From NCBI GenBank assembly GCA_022925895.1, contig JAKSYS010000785.1:1-25730 (forward strand): 25,730 nt of DNA. The letters are read 5' to 3'. Both the position numbers and the translations under genes were made by a program. Below the pieces are notes generated by a model, which was not told the origin of the DNA, searched no databases, and saw only the letters and a program-made list of their open reading frames with translations. Each line of letters starts with the position of its first letter. Within the stretch, counting starts at the first letter, position 1. The DNA is from Fragilaria crotonensis (lineage: Eukaryota > Bacillariophyta > Fragilariophyceae > Fragilariales > Fragilariaceae). Shown here in pieces: positions 5,531 to 24,662 of this stretch.

Positions 5531-5628
5531 CGGATCATCATTTATCTTGTCTTGTGTAAGGACAGTGTGCGTTCAGTGAGCCGCCGCTTCAAGGCAGATG
5601 GCTACCAGCGGAACAATTACGCTTGTAC

Positions 5629-8600
5629 ATGCACCAGAAGTGCAATATTGGGAACGATATCAAGTTTGATATAGCAACAATGATGAGAGTGATTAACAAG
5701 GTGTTTCCCCTTGTGAGTTCGGAACCAAACATATTGGAAATTCCTGGCGGAGTGCAGCTCCGAGTGTTCAGATATACCTTTCAACATCGGACTAGGCGAT
5801 ATTTCTTTTGGGTGACGGCAAAGGATGGAGTAATACCTGCAATGCCTTCAAAGGGTAATGCAACAGCCTGGGAGCAAGACAATGTTTTGACGCGACTGCT
5901 ATCAGCTCGTGGCCAAGAGCAACCATTGGACATTGAAATGTGTTTGGAGCCAGAGGCGAAGCGACAGAAAGGGTCATCAGTCAGCGTGAATCCAAGTACA
6001 GGTAATGCACTTGGAACGGATGAGGAGCGTGCTTCAAAAGAAGCACCAGTAACTGCTGGTACTATGAATCATGAAGTGACTAGTGGTGATTGGTGGGAAT
6101 CCGGCGATGCCCGACGGCTCTTTGCTCCATGCACAATACTGTATGCTAGTGACTGCAATGTGAGAGAAATTGTGATGCAGCGTATCGAGATATTGGAGTC
6201 AGTGAATCACTCGGCAAGTAAATGGAGGAATGTTGTTGATACAACAACAGGCTGCAGCATCGTGAACTCCCACTATTCGGAATCAGATGTCTTCTCTCTC
6301 CGCTACAGAAGCATGTACTTGGCTTTGGCGTTGAAGCAATTTGTGCTGAACGTCACAGGTGACTTGAGGTCTCAGTGGACTTGGAAGCGGTGTCTCCGCC
6401 ATTCAATTGAAGCAATGAATGACATTGGGGTAGAGTACTATTCTAGCTTCGCGACACTGGCTCGATGGCACAGGAAGTTTGCACGCCACAGGTATTATTT
6501 CTATAAAGCGCCAGATGCCAAGGCAGCACGCCCCCGTTTCTTCGTTGAGAACCCTGATGCTATGGATGCGTTCAAAAAACACGGCGTTGCAAATATTAAG
6601 GACCTCAGAGTGGAAATGATGCTAGAGTACGTTCATAATGAGCTCGTGCCAAAGTTGATGCTTAAGCGAGATGGATGTTTGTTCGACGACGATGGCAATG
6701 ATGTCGGAGTAGGAGTAGCGAAAGATATTGTGACTCCTACAACTAGAGCAGCATTTTTGAACTCATACTGCCTTTCAAGCATAAGTATGGCTACTATTGC
6801 AAGGTGGATGCATTCGTGTGGTTTTCGGTACAAGAAGCGTGAGAAACATTATTTTGTTGACGGTCACGAACGACCAGAAACACTTGCGTACAGGCCCGTA
6901 TTCACAGAGAAGTATCTCAGCTACGAGGTGCGAGCTCATCGTTGGCTCCAAATGACGTTGGATGAATCAAATAAACTACTGTTGGAAGGAAGCGTTATTG
7001 CTAACTGCGGTTACAACTATGTCGCCGATGATGGCACTGACATGGTTGAGTATCACATCGATACCTCGTATGCATTTCAGGAGAGACTTACTTTGCTTCC
7101 TTTTGGAGGAAGCCTGAGCGTGCGAAAGCCTATTGGCTCCAATACTGTTATCTACGTTGGCCAAGACGAAGCAATTTTCAAACAATTCCTCTTTCTCACA
7201 AAAATGTGGGTTGGTCCTAGTGGTGAACGCCCGTTACTTCCTAAAGATGAAGGGACTGGCACAATGATATCGACGTTCATTTGTCGAGAGCACGGACTGA
7301 TCAGAGAGATCAGTCCCGAAGTCCTATCTGAAGTAAACCTGAAACGAGCAGGTCAGCGATATGCCGATCAAGAGGCAGCCATTGAGATACTTGGCAGTCC
7401 CGACAAAAAGCCCTTAACACTTGACAGGTCTCCCTTCCTTGTATTCTTTGAGTACGGTGAAAACCGCGAAGGCTACTGGGCTTACAATAACATGGTCCTT
7501 CAGTTCGAGGATGCCGTTGATGTTCTCAAAGTTATGCATCCATCCTATGACTTTGTCTTCTTGTTCGACCATAGTGCTGGTCACGCGAAACAGCGACCGG
7601 ATGGTCTTAATCATCACAGAATGAATCGAGCCTTCGGAGGCAAGACTATTCACATGATGCGCGACACAATCATTTTGCAAGAGGAGGGTTACCTCGGGAC
7701 ATTTCCTCGCATTCTAGAACCTGGAGATACACAATCTTTAGTCTTTCCCACCTCCGACACCTCGTCTGGTCCGTTTTGGATGTCAAACGCAGAAAAAGAC
7801 GAGAGTCGATACGACAAAAACCTTGGAAGTACGACGGCCATCAAACTCAAGATACCGGAAATGATACTACACCTACAAGAGAAGGGTGTTAGAGATACAC
7901 TTGTCGGCAAAAGTATAAGACAGCTGAGGGCCATGTGTACACAACACGGAATCGTGACTCACAAATTAGTGGCTTTGTTGGTTGAGCGAAATCGATCTGA
8001 GTTGGAGCTGGATCTTCAAGGAAAGGGAATCAGTACAAAGGGGAAGAACAAACGGGAGTTAGTTGAAATATGTGAGCAGCATCATATTGCAATAACGAAG
8101 ACTGAAGATAAAATTAAGGAAGGATGGGAGGGAAAACCGAAAGGCTTGTTACAGGTGCTTTGGGAGCGAGGCTTGATTGACGGTTCGAAATTGAAAGACT
8201 ATTCACTTACCGGCAAGAAGGATGACCTCGGTACAGTTGACAATAGCACAAGCTTGCGGCATATCATGGGAATGTGCCACGACTTCCTAAACGAAGAGGG
8301 AATGTTGCAGCACATCGCAAAGAATCTCGGTGTCACAGTCCTCTTGACACCAAAGTGCCATGCCGAGCTTGCAGGAGAAGGTGTTGAGTATGTATGGGCC
8401 TGTGCTAAGGGTGCATACAGAAACATGAGCCTCAAACAGAAGAAAGGAAAAGATAACTTCAAGGCCAGTGTTCTTTATTGTCTGTCAGAAGAGGTGATCA
8501 CAAAGGTGAGAATAAGAAAATTTGCGAGGCGAGCAAGACAGTACTTGATGGCGTATCATGCCATTGATACCAAACAGGTGGATGAACAGACTCAACACGA

Positions 8601-8703
8601 TTGCAAAATGCACGGTCCAGTGGCACTTACAAAGGTGATTGGTGAGTTTAAGACTCACCGCTGCGCATTCGACTTTGATCACAAGTTCGTCATGAGTGCA
8701 TGA
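5629..8703 (+). CDS. DDE transposase with SAP-like insertion
   Basis: About 1,024 residues, intact. The frame is open from 5560; the first ATG is 5629 (an earlier TTG at 5623 is less likely). A helix-turn-helix region (about 375-415) ends in the motif YFVDGHERPETLAYR, which matches transposase-like proteins I know from fungi and oomycetes. The proposed catalytic triad is D513 in GQDEAIF, D647 in FLFDHSAGH and E920 in GEGVEYVW; the last sits in a segment resembling the LPKFHCELNPIEMVW consensus of that family. GGKTIHMMRD (about 670) and KGLLQVLWERGL (about 840) are further family blocks. Between D2 and E lie two SAP-like helix pairs (about 755-820, for example LQGKGISTKGKNKRELVEI), probably DNA-binding. 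Function: cut-and-paste transposition in the nucleus. TIRs with TA borders flank it. The family is IS630-Tc1-mariner-like; the exact subfamily is not resolved. Confidence 0.78.
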   Translation: MHQKCNIGNDIKFDIATMMRVINKVFPLVSSEPNILEIPGGVQLRVFRYTFQHRTRRYFFWVTAKDGVIPAMPSKGNATAWEQDNVLTRLLSARGQEQPLDIEMCLEPEAKRQKGSSVSVNPSTGNALGTDEERASKEAPVTAGTMNHEVTSGDWWESGDARRLFAPCTILYASDCNVREIVMQRIEILESVNHSASKWRNVVDTTTGCSIVNSHYSESDVFSLRYRSMYLALALKQFVLNVTGDLRSQWTWKRCLRHSIEAMNDIGVEYYSSFATLARWHRKFARHRYYFYKAPDAKAARPRFFVENPDAMDAFKKHGVANIKDLRVEMMLEYVHNELVPKLMLKRDGCLFDDDGNDVGVGVAKDIVTPTTRAAFLNSYCLSSISMATIARWMHSCGFRYKKREKHYFVDGHERPETLAYRPVFTEKYLSYEVRAHRWLQMTLDESNKLLLEGSVIANCGYNYVADDGTDMVEYHIDTSYAFQERLTLLPFGGSLSVRKPIGSNTVIYVGQDEAIFKQFLFLTKMWVGPSGERPLLPKDEGTGTMISTFICREHGLIREISPEVLSEVNLKRAGQRYADQEAAIEILGSPDKKPLTLDRSPFLVFFEYGENREGYWAYNNMVLQFEDAVDVLKVMHPSYDFVFLFDHSAGHAKQRPDGLNHHRMNRAFGGKTIHMMRDTIILQEEGYLGTFPRILEPGDTQSLVFPTSDTSSGPFWMSNAEKDESRYDKNLGSTTAIKLKIPEMILHLQEKGVRDTLVGKSIRQLRAMCTQHGIVTHKLVALLVERNRSELELDLQGKGISTKGKNKRELVEICEQHHIAITKTEDKIKEGWEGKPKGLLQVLWERGLIDGSKLKDYSLTGKKDDLGTVDNSTSLRHIMGMCHDFLNEEGMLQHIAKNLGVTVLLTPKCHAELAGEGVEYVWACAKGAYRNMSLKQKKGKDNFKASVLYCLSEEVITKVRIRKFARRARQYLMAYHAIDTKQVDEQTQHDCKMHGPVALTKVIGEFKTHRCAFDFDHKFVMSA

Positions 8704-9261: not shown

Positions 9262-10484
9262 ATGACGACGAGAAACAAGTTGCTGAAAGGGCTTCGAATT
9301 TCCTTCGTTGTGCTCGTACTATGCAACGTTGATGTTCACGTGATGCTGAATTCCTTCTACTACACAAACACGCAACAGCAGTCCAGCACGAATGTCGACG
9401 CACTCGGGTAGACATAACTATCCCGAACACTTCCATTGCGATGGGGGAAGAAACGAAAACACTTGAAAGAACGAAAAGCGTTTCACGTGCGAAACAAAGA
9501 GCTTTTGTCCCACTTGTTCGTTGGCAGAATCCCGAAGAGTTGCGCATCGAGCGTAATGCTCCAGGGATGAGGTTGCATCGCAAGAAACCACCCACGGGAA
9601 ATAATACTCAAAACCAGGAAGTACGCAGTCAAGTAAAGCTCGAGCGACAACTCGACAACAAGAGTTCCCGCAAGGTTACTCTCCTTCCCTCAGATGCCCA
9701 TTACCAACAAGAATTGGGGACTGCATCGTGGGATCTTGCTCCGATTGTCGTTCCCGAATACAAACTGCTTTTCTTCACAATCCCGAAGGTCGGGTGTACT
9801 GTCTTCAAACAGCTATTTCGACGAATTGCACAGTGTCCTGACTGGCGCACGCATTCCATTCGTTTGCCTCATGACCCTTCCCTCAACAACTTGACCTATC
9901 TTTCCGACTATGATGTGGACGACGCGCTTCATATCATGACGAGCGATGAATGGACACGTGCAGTGTTTGTACGACATCCCATGAATCGCATCATCTCCGC
10001 CTACCTCAACAAGGCTGTGGATCATTCGTACAATGGTGGGAACTTATCCTACGTTGCTAAACAATGTTGCCCCCACCGCAATATTTGCGGACAGATGATT
10101 CTAAGTAGTTTCCAAACGTTTCTGCATGTGGCACATGAATGCTCCGATCCCCATTGGACAAGCCAATCGCGGCGTATGCACAGTAAGTACTGGCGCTACA
10201 TCAACTTTATTGGTCATTTGGAAACGGCAGAAGCCGATGCCAAGGTGTTGCTGGAACGAGTCGGTGCGTGGGAAGAGTATGGGGCCACAGGATGGGGAGT
10301 TAATGGAACTGAACCAATTTTTGCATCCAAGTCAACCATACTCCACACGACGAATCCGCAGGATCGCATGCATGACTTCTGCAGCAACGAGGCGGTGGCC
10401 TTGGTGAGAGCTCTGTACGCCGATGATTATCGGCATCCCTTGTTTGGTTTCCCTGACAATGGGATTTGCACAGAACCACGATAA
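9262..10484 (+). CDS. Golgi-type carbohydrate sulfotransferase (Sulfotransferase family 2)
   Basis: Such enzymes move sulfate from PAPS to a sugar hydroxyl on glycans in the Golgi lumen. In the long open frame (ATG at 9441) the 5'-phosphosulfate loop is PKVGCTVFKQLFRR (residues 115-128 of that frame) and the 3'-phosphate loop is FVRHPMNRIISAYLNK (176-191). Later cysteines and NxS/T sites fit a lumenal domain. That frame lacks a membrane anchor. An ORF starting at ATG 9262 supplies one: MTTRNKLLKGLR, then ISFVVLVLC, a classic type II signal-anchor. It stops after 49 codons at 9409. A GT (9408) to AG (9469) intron of 62 nt joins the frames exactly and gives about 386 residues; acceptors at 9478 or 9499 would also keep frame. 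The splice is inferred; the catalytic domain is secure. The gene converges on the SET gene, whose stop is about 40 bp away. Confidence 0.8.
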
Positions 10485-10522: not shown

Positions 10523-13500
10523 TTAACTCTTATCAAACAAAGAGACAATCCTTCGCACTTCACTCGGTGGACTACCTTTCATCACGGCGCAGGCAAGCTC
10601 AGACAAGAAAACAACATCAGGTCCAACTGCCTCTAGATCCGATAGTACGGGATCGTTCATCCGCACCAGAATCGTAGCTACGACGGCATGGAATTGTTTT
10701 ACAACTTCTGAAAATTCAACTGGCAAGGGAGAGCACGTGCCGATTCCCTCCAACAGCAGCACCCTCCCTCGATGGCGCAACGCCACTGCTACACAAAGTG
10801 CATTCAATAGAAATTCGTCCGGCAGCGTCCCAGTTTCGACAATCTTGCTGACGAACTTCATGCAGCTGGTGACTTCGGCTCTCCGGTACCCGGAGATTTC
10901 CTCCAGATATTCTGCGTTCTCCTGATGAACTGATTTCACTTGGGACTGTTGCTTGGATGCTGGTAGAAAGGAGTAGTTCTTGCGTATCCTCACGCTTTCG
11001 TATTCTGGTCCATAGTTGATGAAGAGCTCCACCATTGACCCGTCCGCGGGTATTGTCAGATTACTGATCCTGCCCCCCAGCACGTAGTGCACCACGCCTT
11101 CGGGATCGTGCTCCGCGTGCACCGAAGGGTTTTCCTCCATTTTGCACTCGTTCACGTAAGCTGGGATATGCTGCGCAGCAATGCTATGCAAATCGCCGGT
11201 CCAATCGTCCGTAATGTCGAATTGCGATGACACTCGTGTTGGACCAGCGTCAAATGTCCACTCCTCACACTTCAAACCCATGATGAAGTTCTTCACCAAG
11301 AAGACACACTCTTCCTTCAGATCCCCTTGACGAAAAGGTGCATAAACCCCCAGATCCAACATTTCCCCCTTCCTGAGGCTCAAGCTGGTGCAAGTTGGCA
11401 CCAGCGAGGTGCATCGGAGAAATACCCCAAATCCAGCATTGGGAATGGTTGATGGCCCAACTGAAAAAACTAACTGGTACGCGTTCCAAACGAGAGTTAG
11501 ACGAGGAAGCTCCTTGCCGTCCGGACCCATGACAAGCTCCTCTGTGCGCATGTCTGGTGTCAGCCATCGACGGCATGGTGCTGAGACAAGTGACTCCTCA
11601 AGTACAAGCGGCTCATGTTTTGAAGCATACGCCAAATACCCCCCGAGTGCCCACTCCAGGGACATCGTTGTAGTGGGCTCTATGCTCCATTCACGAAAGG
11701 GTCTCATCCTTTCAACACCTTTTATGGACTCCTCGTTGTAAGTCACCGTAAATGTCACATCATTCTCGTCAAGGCTGTTGCGCTCGCACGAGGTTATCAC
11801 GCCATAGATGACCTTGTTCCGGCCACAGACATCAGTCCACTCCTGGCAGTATTCTTTTCCAACCAAAAAATGCGAGTCGTCTTTCCAAATCAAGGAACCG
11901 CCGACGTGGGTCACAAACTTAAACCTTGAAGCCTCGGCATCAGTTATCTGGCCATGACAACGATCCCACGCGTCTTGTACCGAATTTAGTTCATCTCCGC
12001 AAGGCGAACCGCCAACGTGGGTCACAAACTTCAACCTTGAAGCCTCGGCATCATCTATCTGGCCATGACAACGATCCAACGCGTCTTGTACCGAATTTAG
12101 TTCATCTCCGCAAGGCGAAATTAGGGTCACGACAGACCCTACCCCAGAGACAAAGGTCCAACCTACCGGTAAACCTGGTGCACTCTGTTTCTTCAGGTCC
12201 TTGTGGATCAAACGGCACATCTGACACAGGATCAAAAACATCCGAAAAACTGAGTTAGAGCATTCTCCGTACGACGGCTCTGAGGCAGACTGACTTACCT
12301 TCCGGAGACAACACTTAATTCCCCCTGCAACCTTTCTTCTGTTGTGTCTACAAGACGCGCAACGCGAACAGTCCTTTTTGGTGCATGAAGGACACGCTTT
12401 ACACCGCATCTTGTACAACTCCGCGGGAGTTAACCTCGTGTCCGTCTTACGAATCTTGACCTGTGGAATACTTAATTTTTTCTCCGGAGGATACACTCCC
12501 ATCCTCTCATGATACCCAGATTCCGTGTATATGTTACCCTCTTCTGCGACATCCTCTGTGTCAGATACATCATCCAGGTAATCCCCGTCCTCAAATTGGA
12601 CTGCATAATGAACTTTTCCACAAACATCCGTTCGCTTGTCAACAATATCACCCCAATAGTAGGAACCGTTGGAAAACTTGCAGTATACTCTGGATCCGAT
12701 ATCCTTGCGTGACGAAAGCTCACGTTTCACAATGGCAGTCGACTGCCTCGCTCGCTTCTTAGATTTCGTGCTCGGTGTCTTGTACGTCGGTTGTTTTATA
12801 CTATCATTTTCGAGAATGGGTTCACCAATATGTGCATGAAACTCTCGTTTCAACCCCGACGCTCTCGATGAAAACTCTCCTATTGCCACCTTTATCGCAG
12901 CATCAACAGTACGAAAGTAACTTTGCTGAGGACTGACAAATATGAGTTCATCTTTTGAATTCCTGTACTCTCTTGTAAAATAGAACATCCACCCGTACGG
13001 AAACCCAACAGCTGTTTGTGCCTTTTTGTAACTGGAAATGTTGAGACACATCTAACGACGAGAGGGTAGTGAGAGAGAGGCGATGATGGCGGCGACACGG
13101 AAAGCAAGGGGATCGACCATTTTGCTTCCGAACGTACCTTTCGAAAGCAAACACCTCGCGGCCACGCGGGCTTGGTCAAGAAACGCAAACAGCTAGCGCA
13201 TTTTCGACAGTCTGGTTTTCGGCACATGGTACATTGTTGGCATCGTCCTTGGAACAGTTCTTGGGGACTCATACGGTCTGTCCGACGAAGGTCACGTAGA
13301 CCCGCAGAGGCGCGGCGGGAGGAGGTCCTTGTCCTTCTGGTATCGTTACCACGCACACCATTCGGGACGGAAACTCGTTTGGTATCAAGGCTATCCATGT
13401 TCATGTTGAAGCCCGAAATGTCGTTATCATCACTGCAATTAGATCCGCTAATGGTATCTTTGATCCACAGACGGGGCCGTGTATGCAACATCTCTGAACC

Positions 13501-13875
13501 ATGAGCTGCAGACTCGTCAACACTAAGCGAATCGGCAGGGTCGACGGCAGCATCCATGCCAACATTACCATTGTCCAATGGACAACCAGAATGGCCATTA
13601 CACGTTTGAACATGACTGAGCCCTTCCTCATTGGTAGCAAACACTGCGTTCGAACAAACACACGTGTATTCAACGAATTCATTTTCAACACTTTCATCCT
13701 TTGTTGGTACTTCTATTTCGATTGGTACTGTCCGTGCACTCACGGTTGACTGTGTCTGGATTGTTGTGGTCAATGGTGGAGACTGTGGTACTAGATCAAA
13801 TGCGATCTCTGCTGGCACATTCGGCATTTTCGAATCCCGGGCATCAGAGTGCCCATTAACATCGGCAGTGTCCAT
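10523..13875 (-). CDS. CXXC / MBD-like / Tudor-like / SET chromatin protein, three exons
   Basis: Exons 13875-13138, 13051-12299 and 12220-10523; introns of 86 and 78 nt, both phase 0 with GTACGT/GTAAGT donors and AG acceptors; about 1,062 residues. In order: a Ser/Asp-rich N-terminus with a Cys/His cluster (70-98); CXXC finger 1 (211-246, C-x2-C-x2-C-x4-C-x2-C-x2-C plus CFRK); an MBD-like segment beginning GFPYGW (about 262-300); a Tudor-like segment with YYWGDI...QFEDGD (363-414); CXXC finger 2 (462-497); a second MBD-like segment GLPVGW (512-545) extended by a 37-residue tandem repeat (532-605); a second Tudor-like segment (616-669); and a SET-like domain (747-915) with AGFGVF, YVNECK in place of the usual NHS/NHxC motif, and ELFINYGPEY. 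By analogy with CXXC-SET (MLL-type) proteins it would bind CpG DNA and modify histones; the altered NHxC motif leaves catalysis uncertain. Confidence 0.75.
10967..11473 (-). other. SET-like domain region
   Basis: This codes for residues about 747-915. The order of motifs is that of SET domains: a GxG-type turn (AGFGVF), a LGVY block, the asparagine-containing YVNECK block near residue 854, and the ELxxxYGxxY block near 895. Loss of the His in the NHS/NHxC motif is visible. A long segment between the second and third motifs (about 60 residues) is larger than in compact SET domains. Confidence 0.6.
11895..12116 (-). repeat. Two 111-bp tandem units within the SET gene
   Basis: Units 11895-12005 and 12006-12116 differ at about five positions (about 95% identical). 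The period equals 37 codons, so frame is kept and the protein carries SPCGDELNSVQDA... twice. The duplication joins the end of the MBD-like segment to the start of the following linker. Confidence 0.93.
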
Positions 13876-16160: not shown

Positions 16161-16644
16161 GCGGAGTGGCTAGTGGCTTCAGTCTGATCACTGCCTTGAA
16201 TGGAGAGTGGGTTCATGTCCAATCACCACCTTAAATGGAGAGTGGCTTCACATCCAATCACTACCTCTGATGGAGAGTGGCTTCACCTTGGATCACCACC
16301 TGTAATGGAGAGTGGCTTCACCTTGGATCACTACCTCTACTAATGAGAGTGAGGGGGTGCATGTCCTATTGCCACCTCTAATTGAGTCCACATCCAATCA
16401 CCACCTCAAATGGAGAGTGGCTTCACCTTGGATCACCATCTCTACTGCTGGAGAGTGACTTCATGTCTGATCATGACTTCTATTGGAGAGTGGCTTCAAC
16501 GTTGATCACCAACTCTAATGGAGAGTGGCTTCATGTCCAATCATCACGTCTAATGGAGAGTAGCTTCACATCCAATCACTAGCACCTCGAAAGGAGAGTG
16601 GCTTCACGTCCAATCATCACCTCTAATGGAGATTGGCTCATATC
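16161..16644. repeat. Degenerate minisatellite, about 35-bp unit, about 14 copies
   Basis: Repeated unit approximates TGGAGAGTGGCTTCA followed by CRTCCAATCACYACCTCTAA. Most copies are 35 bp, some 38 bp with a 3-bp insertion, and two near 16340-16400 are rearranged or truncated. The period is not a multiple of three, so the short ORFs across it are not genes. Confidence 0.92.
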
Positions 16645-21991: not shown

Positions 21992-22184
21992 TGGTGTTGG
22001 GTTGTCTCCTCGTCGTGGTGCGTGATCACCATCCCATTCTTGTCGAACGAAGTGGCGTCGCGCGGACCTTACCTGCCAGGCAGCAGGAGAAGGCCGAACA
22101 ATGTCATCCAGTCGACGGGGGTTGGCGGTCGCGGAAGGGTAGATTCGACGTTGTCGAAGAGAAGGGTGCCGCGGGAACCGGACG

Positions 22185-24662
22185 ATGCCGACTGCGATGT
22201 CCGTTCGGAATCTAGGGCAGTCGCCCCGTGTTTTGGGGTCGCAGGCAATCGTGGACGGGGGGCGGAATCGCCTCCCCTCCAGGCGTGGGACAAGAGAGAG
22301 TCTTCCGACTCCCTCGTCGGTTATGTCGCTGTTGTCCATGGCTGTCGTACCGGAAGAAAGGCGTGCGTTCCGGCGACGGTTCCGACGTGCGAAGAAGGCG
22401 AGTGCGCCGGGGAGTGCGGCTGGTCGGTGGGTTCTTGGGTGGTCGGACGCCGATCCGTGTGGTTGCAACTGCATTTGGGTGGGAGCCGTTCCGACTGCGT
22501 TCAATTGCGGACATGTTCCCCGAATCGGGGATGCAGTCCAATTTTTTGAACGAATTCTACGTTATGGACGTTATCGTGAACCGCCGGTCGGCTCCTTTGA
22601 CTGCTGCATCGGGCGGCGGCCATGCGGTTTGTCACGCCCAGTCGTACATCCCTGACGATGGGGCACCGGATGGGGATTACCAGTTCAGGGCGGTGATCCT
22701 CTTCCTACCCCAGTGTGGGGTCTTCTACTGCAGTCGTGATCGCCACGCTGGTGATGCTGGACTGCAGGGCACATTGAGGGCTTACGACATGAGCTGGCTT
22801 CGCTTGGTCAGGACTGAATCGGAGCACTGTTTGCCATCGTACACCTTTGGTGATGACAGCTATGTGCAGCGGTTTTATTCTGATACCACATTGCCTTGTG
22901 GTACCCGTCAAGTGTCAGCGTGGAGGCTCTCGACTGGGCGAGTGCTCCCGGGTCAGCAGGTACGGTTGGTATACCGGGCAAGCCAGGGAGGGGATGGAGA
23001 GTTGCCCCTGCTCCCCCCAGACTTCATCGGCGGCATGGACTATCGGGATGTTCCTTCCGACTACCGCGCCCACGAATACCTTGACCGGCTGAAGGCTTCC
23101 TCCAGTGCAAGGGAGGGTTGTCGGCACTACGTGGACGGGGCCCGTCACACTGACCTTCCGGTCTTGCTGGATTATTGACCCCAACGTGCATCATTTCGTT
23201 GACGTGCACATCGCCATCGACGAGATCCCGGATCGGGTGTCGGTTGTCATGGTGAGGAACGTTGGGAAAATGGACCCCGTGATGATCGACAGCAGTTATT
23301 GGATGAGCTTACGGAGGTGCAGTGCAATTAAACTTGCCGGTGGGAAGGGCACTGCGAGGCGAAGTCTTCTGATGTTGGGGGATGATTGCAATTGGGACCA
23401 GGATCACCGTGAAGAAGGGCGATTCTGTCGATTGTCCCGCTGTCCACGACAAGGTTCCGTACGCTGCAAACTCGATTGTTGGGAGGATGTCGTCCGCGGG
23501 CTTGTGGTGGACTTGGCGGATGTCGGGAGCTGTTGCTTCCCCCAGGTGTACTCTGTGATAAGAGACACGGAGGTGAATTCTGGCAGGCCCGGTGGCACCA
23601 ATGGATGGCGTTGCCTTTGGTTGGGACGACTCCGACAGCGATGGCAGCGGCGGCGGCGACAGCGGCGGCGATGCGATGATGATGATGATGGGGATGACGG
23701 CGGCAACTACAACTGTGGCGTTGTTGATGATGATCACCACTGCTCGTTTGTTGGCCGATGCCCAGGCCAAGAAGACGCAGGCCAATACCGCCAACGCCCG
23801 CCGCCTGGATTTCCTAAGCAGGAAAATCAGGGGCTGCTTGCGGTGTTGGAGCGTCGGCGACGGGTTGCGTACACTATCGACCTGAGTTATAACCTGGGTA
23901 ACTCGTCTCACTTTGACGTTAACGATGCCTCGCAGGTACAGTTGTTGGACAGAGGAGATGCTTGGCTGGGGAGAACTGGTACTTCATCATGCCCAATGTT
24001 GAAGGCAAGCGACCGAATGGAACCAAGTTCACTGGTTTGGCCATAAAACTTGGCCACGGAATCGCGATCAGCTGGGATGGCAGGATTGTAAGGCACTGCA
24101 CGTCTGTTTCATGTCCTGATGGCTTGGACAGCGGTTACGTTGGTGTTGCAAAGTTCTACATCCTTCGTGAACACCCTCTACGGTGTTCACCTGCGCCAAG
24201 GAAAAGATCGTTCAGGCTGGACGTGCTGGGTGTGCTGCGAATTATCGGCCTGTTCTCCGACCCGATCCTTGGAGGGAAAGGGTGCCCAGTAAGAAGCGCT
24301 TGAACCGAAAACGTCGGCGCCGCCGGAAACACCGGGATGAATTGACGGTTGCCCAAAACCCAATTGAAGACGAGGTGATCGCAACGGCAGCCACCCTTGA
24401 AGCAGCTGCTGTCGAGCCCATCAGTGTGCGCTTGCCGAAGCACGTTGTCACGGTGTCTCGACAGCTTTCCCTTGTTGGGAGAAAGAGGAAACCGCAAGTG
24501 GAGCCAGGAATGGGGACCTCTGCGAATGGGGGTGGTGTTGATGGCGAACGAAAGGCCGTACCTAGACAGCCTACAGCAGCTGACCTGGCAATTGGTGGCG
24601 CATACAGTACCAAGAAAAAAAGAGCTGGTGATGTGCAGGGGCTACTGCGGCGGTTGACTTAA
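22185..24662 (+). pseudogene. Multiply frameshifted relic; C-terminal part 2OG/Fe(II)-oxygenase-like
   Basis: Protein-like segments switch frame repeatedly along the plus strand. 22500-23178 gives FLNEFYVMDVIVNRRS...DLPVLLDY. The next frame continues DPNVHHFVDVHIAIDEIPD from about 23178. Another frame shows GWDDSDSDGSGGGD near 23607, then YTIDLSYNLGNSSHFDVNDA (23870-23930), GENWYFIMPNVEGKRPNG (from 23965), KLGHGIAISWDGRIVRHCTS (to about 24105) and VFTCAKEKIVQAGRAG (from about 24182), ending in a Lys/Arg-rich tail. At least five frame changes are needed, so it is not translatable as it stands. The blocks recall a family I believe is multicopy in diatoms. The HFD motif and the later RHCTS are spaced like the HxD and distal His of 2-oxoglutarate oxygenases; that reading is inference. 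The true 5' end is unclear. Confidence 0.55.

Follow-up and report, generated by a model that had tools for sequence, protein, structure and literature searches.

The window analysed here, positions 1 to 25,730 of contig JAKSYS010000785.1 in the Fragilaria crotonensis assembly GCA_022925895.1, carries on its minus strand (13875-10523) a gene for a predicted chromatin protein, with the ATG at 13875 and a TAA ending at 10523. In its spliced product of 1,062 residues, the N-terminal half appears to hold a CXXC-MBD module in duplicate, with a Tudor domain after the first copy, and the C-terminal half contains a divergent segment that is probably, although not provenly, a SET domain of the PR type.

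The gene comprises three exons, and its introns were called from GT-AG sites, the reading frame and the completion of the zinc fingers. Introns of such short length are in keeping with a diatom. Exon 1 (13138..13875), delimited by the open reading frame (ORF) and the GT-AG junctions, encodes residues 1-246, that is, the N-terminus, a basic stretch and the first CXXC finger (CXXC1) up to its seventh cysteine. Intron 1 (13052..13137; 86 bp, GT-AG, phase 0) lies between RK and MC of CXXC1, and exon 2 (12299..13051; residues 247-497) continues with a first MBD-like segment, a first Tudor segment (Tudor1) and CXXC2 up to its seventh cysteine. Intron 2 (12221..12298; 78 bp, GT-AG, phase 0) again falls between RK and MC, here of CXXC2, and exon 3 (10523..12220) encodes residues 498-1062 and the stop codon. 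Without any splicing, the frame ends after 327 codons. For intron 2, splicing is the preferred reading, since it brings cysteines seven and eight of CXXC2 to the canonical distance; a main form in which this intron is coding was rejected, as it would separate the last two zinc cysteines of that finger. In the resulting model 1,062 codons are open, the splice sites are intact and all 16 zinc cysteines are present. The strand, coordinates and length proposed in the initial annotation of this DNA are thereby confirmed at the sequence level, and the predicted model of one spliced gene is sound.

Intron 2 is itself in frame and stop-free, and its retention, with intron 1 removed, gives a product of 1,088 amino acids. 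CXXC2 would then carry 26 extra residues between its seventh and eighth zinc cysteines, and the intron may possibly act as a switch through retention.

Duplicated CXXC and MBD-like modules

The fingers CXXC1 (13046..13242, minus strand, spanning intron 1; residues 212-248) and CXXC2 (12215..12403, minus strand, spanning intron 2; residues 463-499) were recognized by their eight-cysteine pattern, and both have the canonical spacing CxxCxxCx4CxxCxxCx13Cx4C. Shuffling the whole protein 20,000 times never produced this pattern, and neither did 20,000 shuffles of a 60-residue window around CXXC1, and a chance origin was rejected on these counts; two CXXC fingers in one chain, as first proposed, are thus borne out. 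CXXC1 reaches 14.8 bits against Pfam PF02008 (E 0.031), under the cut-off of 26.5 bits, and CXXC2 has no PF02008 match in Pfam. When the full protein was searched against PDB sequences, all nine matches were DNMT1 chains lying over CXXC1 (best E 1.1). In hhalign comparisons with five known CXXC domains, shuffles did as well in 0/100 cases for CXXC1 and 1/100 for CXXC2, and a hidden Markov model (HMM) built from these five was equalled in 1/500 and 2/500 shuffles by whole score and in 6/500 and 37/500 by best stretch, respectively. A two-row CXXC profile retrieved only unrelated chains from the PDB.

The initial annotation had assigned these fingers to the reading of unmethylated CpG. According to PMC3685328, fingers that read CpG have a KQ or RQ motif, or HQ in those of type 3, and KFGG marks type 1, while type-2 fingers, such as CxxC-1 and -2 of MBD1, are without the CpG motif or a functional DNA-binding loop. 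Neither finger of our protein contains KFGG, KQ, RQ, HQ or the glycine of CGxC, and classic CpG reading is therefore not expected of them. Both resemble type 2 in their predicted sequence, which leaves the reading of unmethylated CpG by CXXC1 or CXXC2 not supported.

Each finger is followed by an MBD-like segment. For MBD-like 1 (12881..13006, minus strand; residues 262-303), an AlphaFold2 model from a two-row alignment had a predicted local distance difference test (pLDDT) score of 60.9, with ten-residue means of 66 to 78 over its residues 11-60. When this model was compared with the PDB by Foldseek, the first 26 matches were all MBDs (MBD1, MBD2, MBD3, MBD4 and MeCP2), with probabilities of 0.69 to 1.00, a best E of 6e-3 and TM-scores up to 0.62. 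Among the 50 matches listed of 319, 35 were MBD or TAM domains, the MBD of SETDB2 included, and none of those listed had E <= 0.001. The model thus suggests, with medium confidence, an MBD fold for the first copy. In Pfam, the MBD family (PF01429) matches neither copy, and DUF7028 matches copy 1 at 14.4 and 16 bits, under its cut-off of 27. MBD-like 2 (12062..12175, minus strand; residues 513-550) is identified by hhalign and by its likeness to MBD-like 1: against four MBDs, 0/100 shuffles were as good in hhalign (probability 31%) and 1/500 with an MBD HMM. A two-row MBD profile found only unrelated chains in the PDB. The initial annotation had tied its MBD-like and SET-like segments to profile or structural matches, and Pfam returns neither an MBD nor a SET, whereas the structural comparison does recover MBDs for copy 1.

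An MBD carries two arginine fingers, R111 and R133 in MeCP2. By hand alignment, copy 1 retains the second arginine, in the FRT that follows the SP turn, and its first arginine position is uncertain, while copy 2 has an asparagine at the second place (LNS) and no arginine near the first. The idea that both MBDs read methyl-CpG is not supported by this hand alignment of the predicted sequences.

That the two modules arose from one another is suggested by both their introns and their sequences. The introns cut the same codon boundary, in phase 0 between RK and MC, immediately ahead of the eighth zinc cysteine in either finger. The two fingers align with a score of 128 (shuffle maximum 62), the linkers plus MBD-like segments with 46 (maximum 35) across 14 core residues that include GxPxGW, and the MBD-like segments alone with 37 (maximum 30). 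Whole modules, once the extra 37-residue repeat described below is removed, align with 178 (maximum 57), and none of these scores was reached in 1,000 shuffles. The stretch from MBD to Tudor (46/1,000 shuffles) and the Tudor-like segments (33/1,000) are marginal, and duplication is therefore shown for CXXC plus MBD only. The shared intron position and the similarity of the CXXC and MBD-like segments together indicate an intragenic duplication, in line with the doubled pair that had been noted at the outset, and the alignments point to a CXXC-MBD pair doubled inside the gene. Since the intron is shared, it would have come first and the module duplication second. The youngest event is a near-identical tandem repeat of 111 bp, or 37 codons (11895..12116, minus strand), which copies the latter half of MBD-like 2 together with the following stretch. 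Its units are 95% identical, with five differences, and three of the four changed codons are non-synonymous.

The two Tudor-like segments fared differently. Tudor1 (12554..12703, minus strand; residues 363-412) matched KDM4A in a phmmer search of the PDB (E 8.5e-4), followed by KDM4B (0.0048), SETDB1 (0.13) and 53BP1 (0.16), the last at a level equalled by an iron-sulfur hydrogenase subunit (0.15). Against PF18104, the segment scored 21.0 bits (E 2.8e-4) and the whole protein 14.3 bits, with a cut-off of 31.4. Tudor-like 2 (11708..11872, minus strand; residues 614-668) was assigned by eye only, has no Pfam match, and its likeness to Tudor1 is the one equalled by 33 of the 1,000 shuffles. Of the two Tudor-like segments, the first is thus supported as a predicted Tudor domain and the second is not.

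The C-terminal SET-like segment

Residues 738-918 (10958..11500, minus strand) form the SET-like segment, perhaps of PR type, recognized by three PRDM9-like motifs in order: SVGPSTIPNAGFGVFL (750-765), IPAYVNECKMEENPSVHAE (849-867) and GSMVELFINYGPEYESVR (891-908). Of the SET motifs GxG, NHxC and catalytic Tyr, the first and last are present as GFG (760-762) and Y900, and the place of NHxC is taken by VNEC, within the sequence YVNECK at 852-857 that the initial annotation had correctly pointed out. The chain of PRDM9 motifs scored 77, compared with a shuffle mean of 15.8, and no shuffle came as high, either in a run of 300 (best 60) or in a second run of 2,000 (best 50) in which the search was limited to the 40 best places for the first motif. 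In 42 control tiles, taken from three other ORFs of the window and from the N-terminal part of the protein, the PRDM9 chain scored at most 19. Once the first motif is given, the score of the remaining two was reached by 15/2,000 shuffles. The same procedure with MLL1 gave 19, a value at chance (121/300 shuffles). Moreover, a Smith-Waterman alignment with PRDM9 scored 52 (shuffle mean 28.2, standard deviation 4.5; 0/1,000), and hhalign with four PRDM sequences gave 25.4 (shuffle maximum 19.8; 0/100). Two weak Pfam matches of the segment to DUF2845 and Glyco_hydro_32C were set aside as unrelated.

YVNECK had been taken as a possible sign of an inactive enzyme or one of altered specificity. PRDM9 is an active enzyme whose catalytic Tyr-357 is needed for activity, as stated in PMC4919437. 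At the place of NHxC, the PRDM9 sequence reads YVNCA, and since an active enzyme carries so similar a motif there, YVNECK does not speak for inactivity; by motif order, PRDM9 is also a closer fit to the segment than MLL1 or EZH1. We take Tyr-357 of PRDM9 to be the tyrosine of WYG. Since the GxG, the asparagine of the NH motif and a tyrosine at the catalytic position are all kept, the balance tips somewhat towards an active methyltransferase over a dead one. Thus, the SET-like call stands with respect to its three ordered motifs and fails in whole-domain profiles; the segment is probably a PR-type SET, not a proven one, and this assignment is the weak point of the domain reading.

Relation to known chromatin proteins and competing explanations

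MLL1/KMT2A and KMT2B combine a CXXC with PHDs and a SET. Our protein likewise has CXXC and SET in one chain, which is the part of the original comparison with MLL that holds, but MBD1 and SETDB1 are nearer in content. MLL has a type-1 CXXC with KFGG and KQ and a canonical NHSC SET, whereas the studied protein has type-2-like fingers and a PR-like SET; unlike MLL, it also has MBD-like segments, no PHD match and no post-SET pattern, CxCx4C being absent from the protein. Among the families sought in the full protein, Pfam returned no PHD, FYR, post-SET, pre-SET, JmjC or BRCT match, and NCBIfam gave none for the 1,062 residues. SETDB1/KMT1E joins Tudors, a single MBD, a pre-SET and a bifurcated, split SET. 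Like our protein, it brings Tudor, MBD and SET together in a single chain, and its Tudor is a weak match (E 0.13) to Tudor1; unlike SETDB1, which is not known to carry a CXXC, the studied protein has CXXCs, two modules, and no pre-SET or SET match in Pfam. The KDM4A (E 8.5e-4) and 53BP1 (E 0.16) Tudors match Tudor1, in a protein without the JmjC or BRCT matches. MBD1 consists of an MBD and three CXXC, as described in PMC3685328. It is similar to our protein in carrying an MBD with several CXXC in one chain, although their order and number differ. MBD1 is not known to carry a SET or a Tudor.

PRDM9 and the PRDM family share with the studied protein the motifs SxIPxAGxGV, YVN and ELxxxYGxEY in the same order, in a similarity that is short and local. 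All human PRDMs but PRDM11 carry zinc fingers, according to PMC4009873. Unlike most PRDMs, our protein has no C2H2 fingers, as neither a Pfam C2H2 match nor a C2H2 pattern occurs anywhere in its 1,062 residues. The combination is a variant of known chromatin architectures, and no such protein was described among the literature titles and abstract beginnings listed, a coverage that leaves subscription journals mostly outside.

We slightly favour the view that this is a chromatin-bound protein with duplicated CXXC-MBD modules and a divergent PR-type SET end that probably methylates a histone lysine. Everything past the domain assignments is what we infer from them. In this proposal, the N-terminal half would carry the two module copies, the first then followed by the Tudor, duplicated after the CXXC intron existed. 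The modules would hold the protein on DNA and nucleosomes, and the C-terminal PR-type SET would probably methylate histone lysine there. Of the reading residues, module 1 with Tudor1 appears to keep a larger share than module 2, whose role would have shifted towards structure or protein binding.

Several results weigh against this proposal. The shuffle tests lose force because PRDM9 was picked as the reference after its motif had been recognized by eye. In Smith-Waterman alignments, PRDM11 (781/1,000), PRDM14 (261/1,000) and MLL1 (746/1,000) are at chance, the PRDM9 score on the whole protein with softer gaps is equalled by 7/500 shuffles, and the EZH1 motif chain scores 35 (7/300 shuffles), below its own control maximum of 39. 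The hhalign probability with PRDM is 13.6%, and hhalign profiles of eight SET and of four canonical SET domains were each matched by 2/100 shuffles. The segment has no SET match (PF00856) in Pfam and no sequence match in the PDB; HMMs of eight SETs (-0.8 bits, 24/500 shuffles as good) and of four PRDMs (-1.0 bits, 70/500) are negative, that of four canonical SETs reported no match on the segment, and on the full protein the results of these HMMs were no match, 99/500 and 115/500 shuffles as good. The sole structural model covering the SET, of exon 3 from a single sequence, had a pLDDT of 34 and was discarded. In the N-terminal half, MBD-like 1 is weak by sequence, shuffles being as good in 3/100 cases (hhalign) and 18/500 (HMM), and the CXXC HMM on the full protein lies within the shuffles by whole-protein score (275/500; 1/500 by best stretch). 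In addition, pattern matches to this gene in viral contigs (1, 10, 0 and 52) and prokaryote genome contigs (31 and 34) yielded no confirmed relatives, a blank that says little on eukaryotes.

The absence of Pfam SET and PDB sequence matches, together with small-profile searches of the segment that stay within noise, could also be read as a scaffold of readers without an enzyme, in which the C-terminal half is an inactive SET or folds in some other way, and the protein serves as an adaptor that recruits factors. That a number of PRDM proteins are regarded as inactive counts for this explanation. However, the PRDM9-like motifs occur in order (0/2,000 shuffles) with GxG, Asn and Tyr present, and we hold a scaffold to be possible, at clearly lower probability than a methylating protein. 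Less probable again is that the gene is a relaxed or decaying paralogue from a lineage-specific family, whose domains are remnants with little function now and whose second module and recent 111-bp repeat would reflect a loss of constraint. The non-synonymous changes in three of the four altered codons of the 111-bp repeat, the second MBD-like copy without its arginine by hand alignment, a Tudor-like 2 that Pfam does not recognize, and the lack of relatives in the viral and prokaryote collections with which to measure selection would all suit decay, but the 1,062 open codons, intact splice sites and full complement of 16 zinc cysteines make it unlikely.

As the present model was derived from the sequence itself, two neighbouring genes or other introns might be imagined, with the SET-like part as a separate protein. 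Exon 3, however, is a single open frame from the last cysteine of CXXC2 to the end, and removing the introns completes each zinc finger, so that we deem such an error highly improbable. A bolder extension of the favoured proposal holds that this is a PR-type SET methyltransferase outside animals, in one chain with duplicated CXXC-MBD, that arose apart from MLL, MBD1-SETDB1 and PRDM9. Such a protein would by itself couple the state of the DNA to histone methylation, and would show how this alga connects its DNA methylation with histone marks. We find this doubtful, giving it less weight than the scaffold and more than decay.

Flanking features and biological meaning

Outside the domains described, residues 1-178 at the N-terminus gave no match when searched as a segment against Pfam, and the C-terminal segment (10526..10957, minus strand; residues 919-1062) is likewise without a Pfam match. 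Next to the gene lies a convergent sulfotransferase ORF (9441-10484, plus strand; PF03567, E 8.5e-25), whose end is 38 bp away from the stop codon of our gene. Further away, a plus-strand ORF of 1,026 amino acids (5623-8703) resembles, by eye, a DDE-type transposase carrying SAP-like repeats; it has no Pfam match and no viral-contig relative. A minus-strand stretch at 739-1206 gives a weak CRAL-TRIO match (E 0.042), under the cut-off. Positions 16172-16638 hold a tandem array in which a 35-bp unit occurs about 12 times, or a 70-bp unit 6.6 times. Positions 22001-24000 have a GC content of 0.57 to 0.60, compared with 0.40 to 0.53 elsewhere in the window, with long ORFs that overlap on both strands. 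In the whole window, neither the Rfam nor the tRNA search found anything.

Single CXXC-SET proteins are known to couple DNA methylation to histone marks. The same coupling is known from complexes, such as that of MBD1 with SETDB1, which is named in a title among the references of PMC3685328. If our proposal is true, one chain in which both DNA-contact domains are doubled and joined to a SET-like end would put this coupling to the test in a compact form offered by nature, and the protein would be a candidate link between DNA methylation and histone marks in this diatom.

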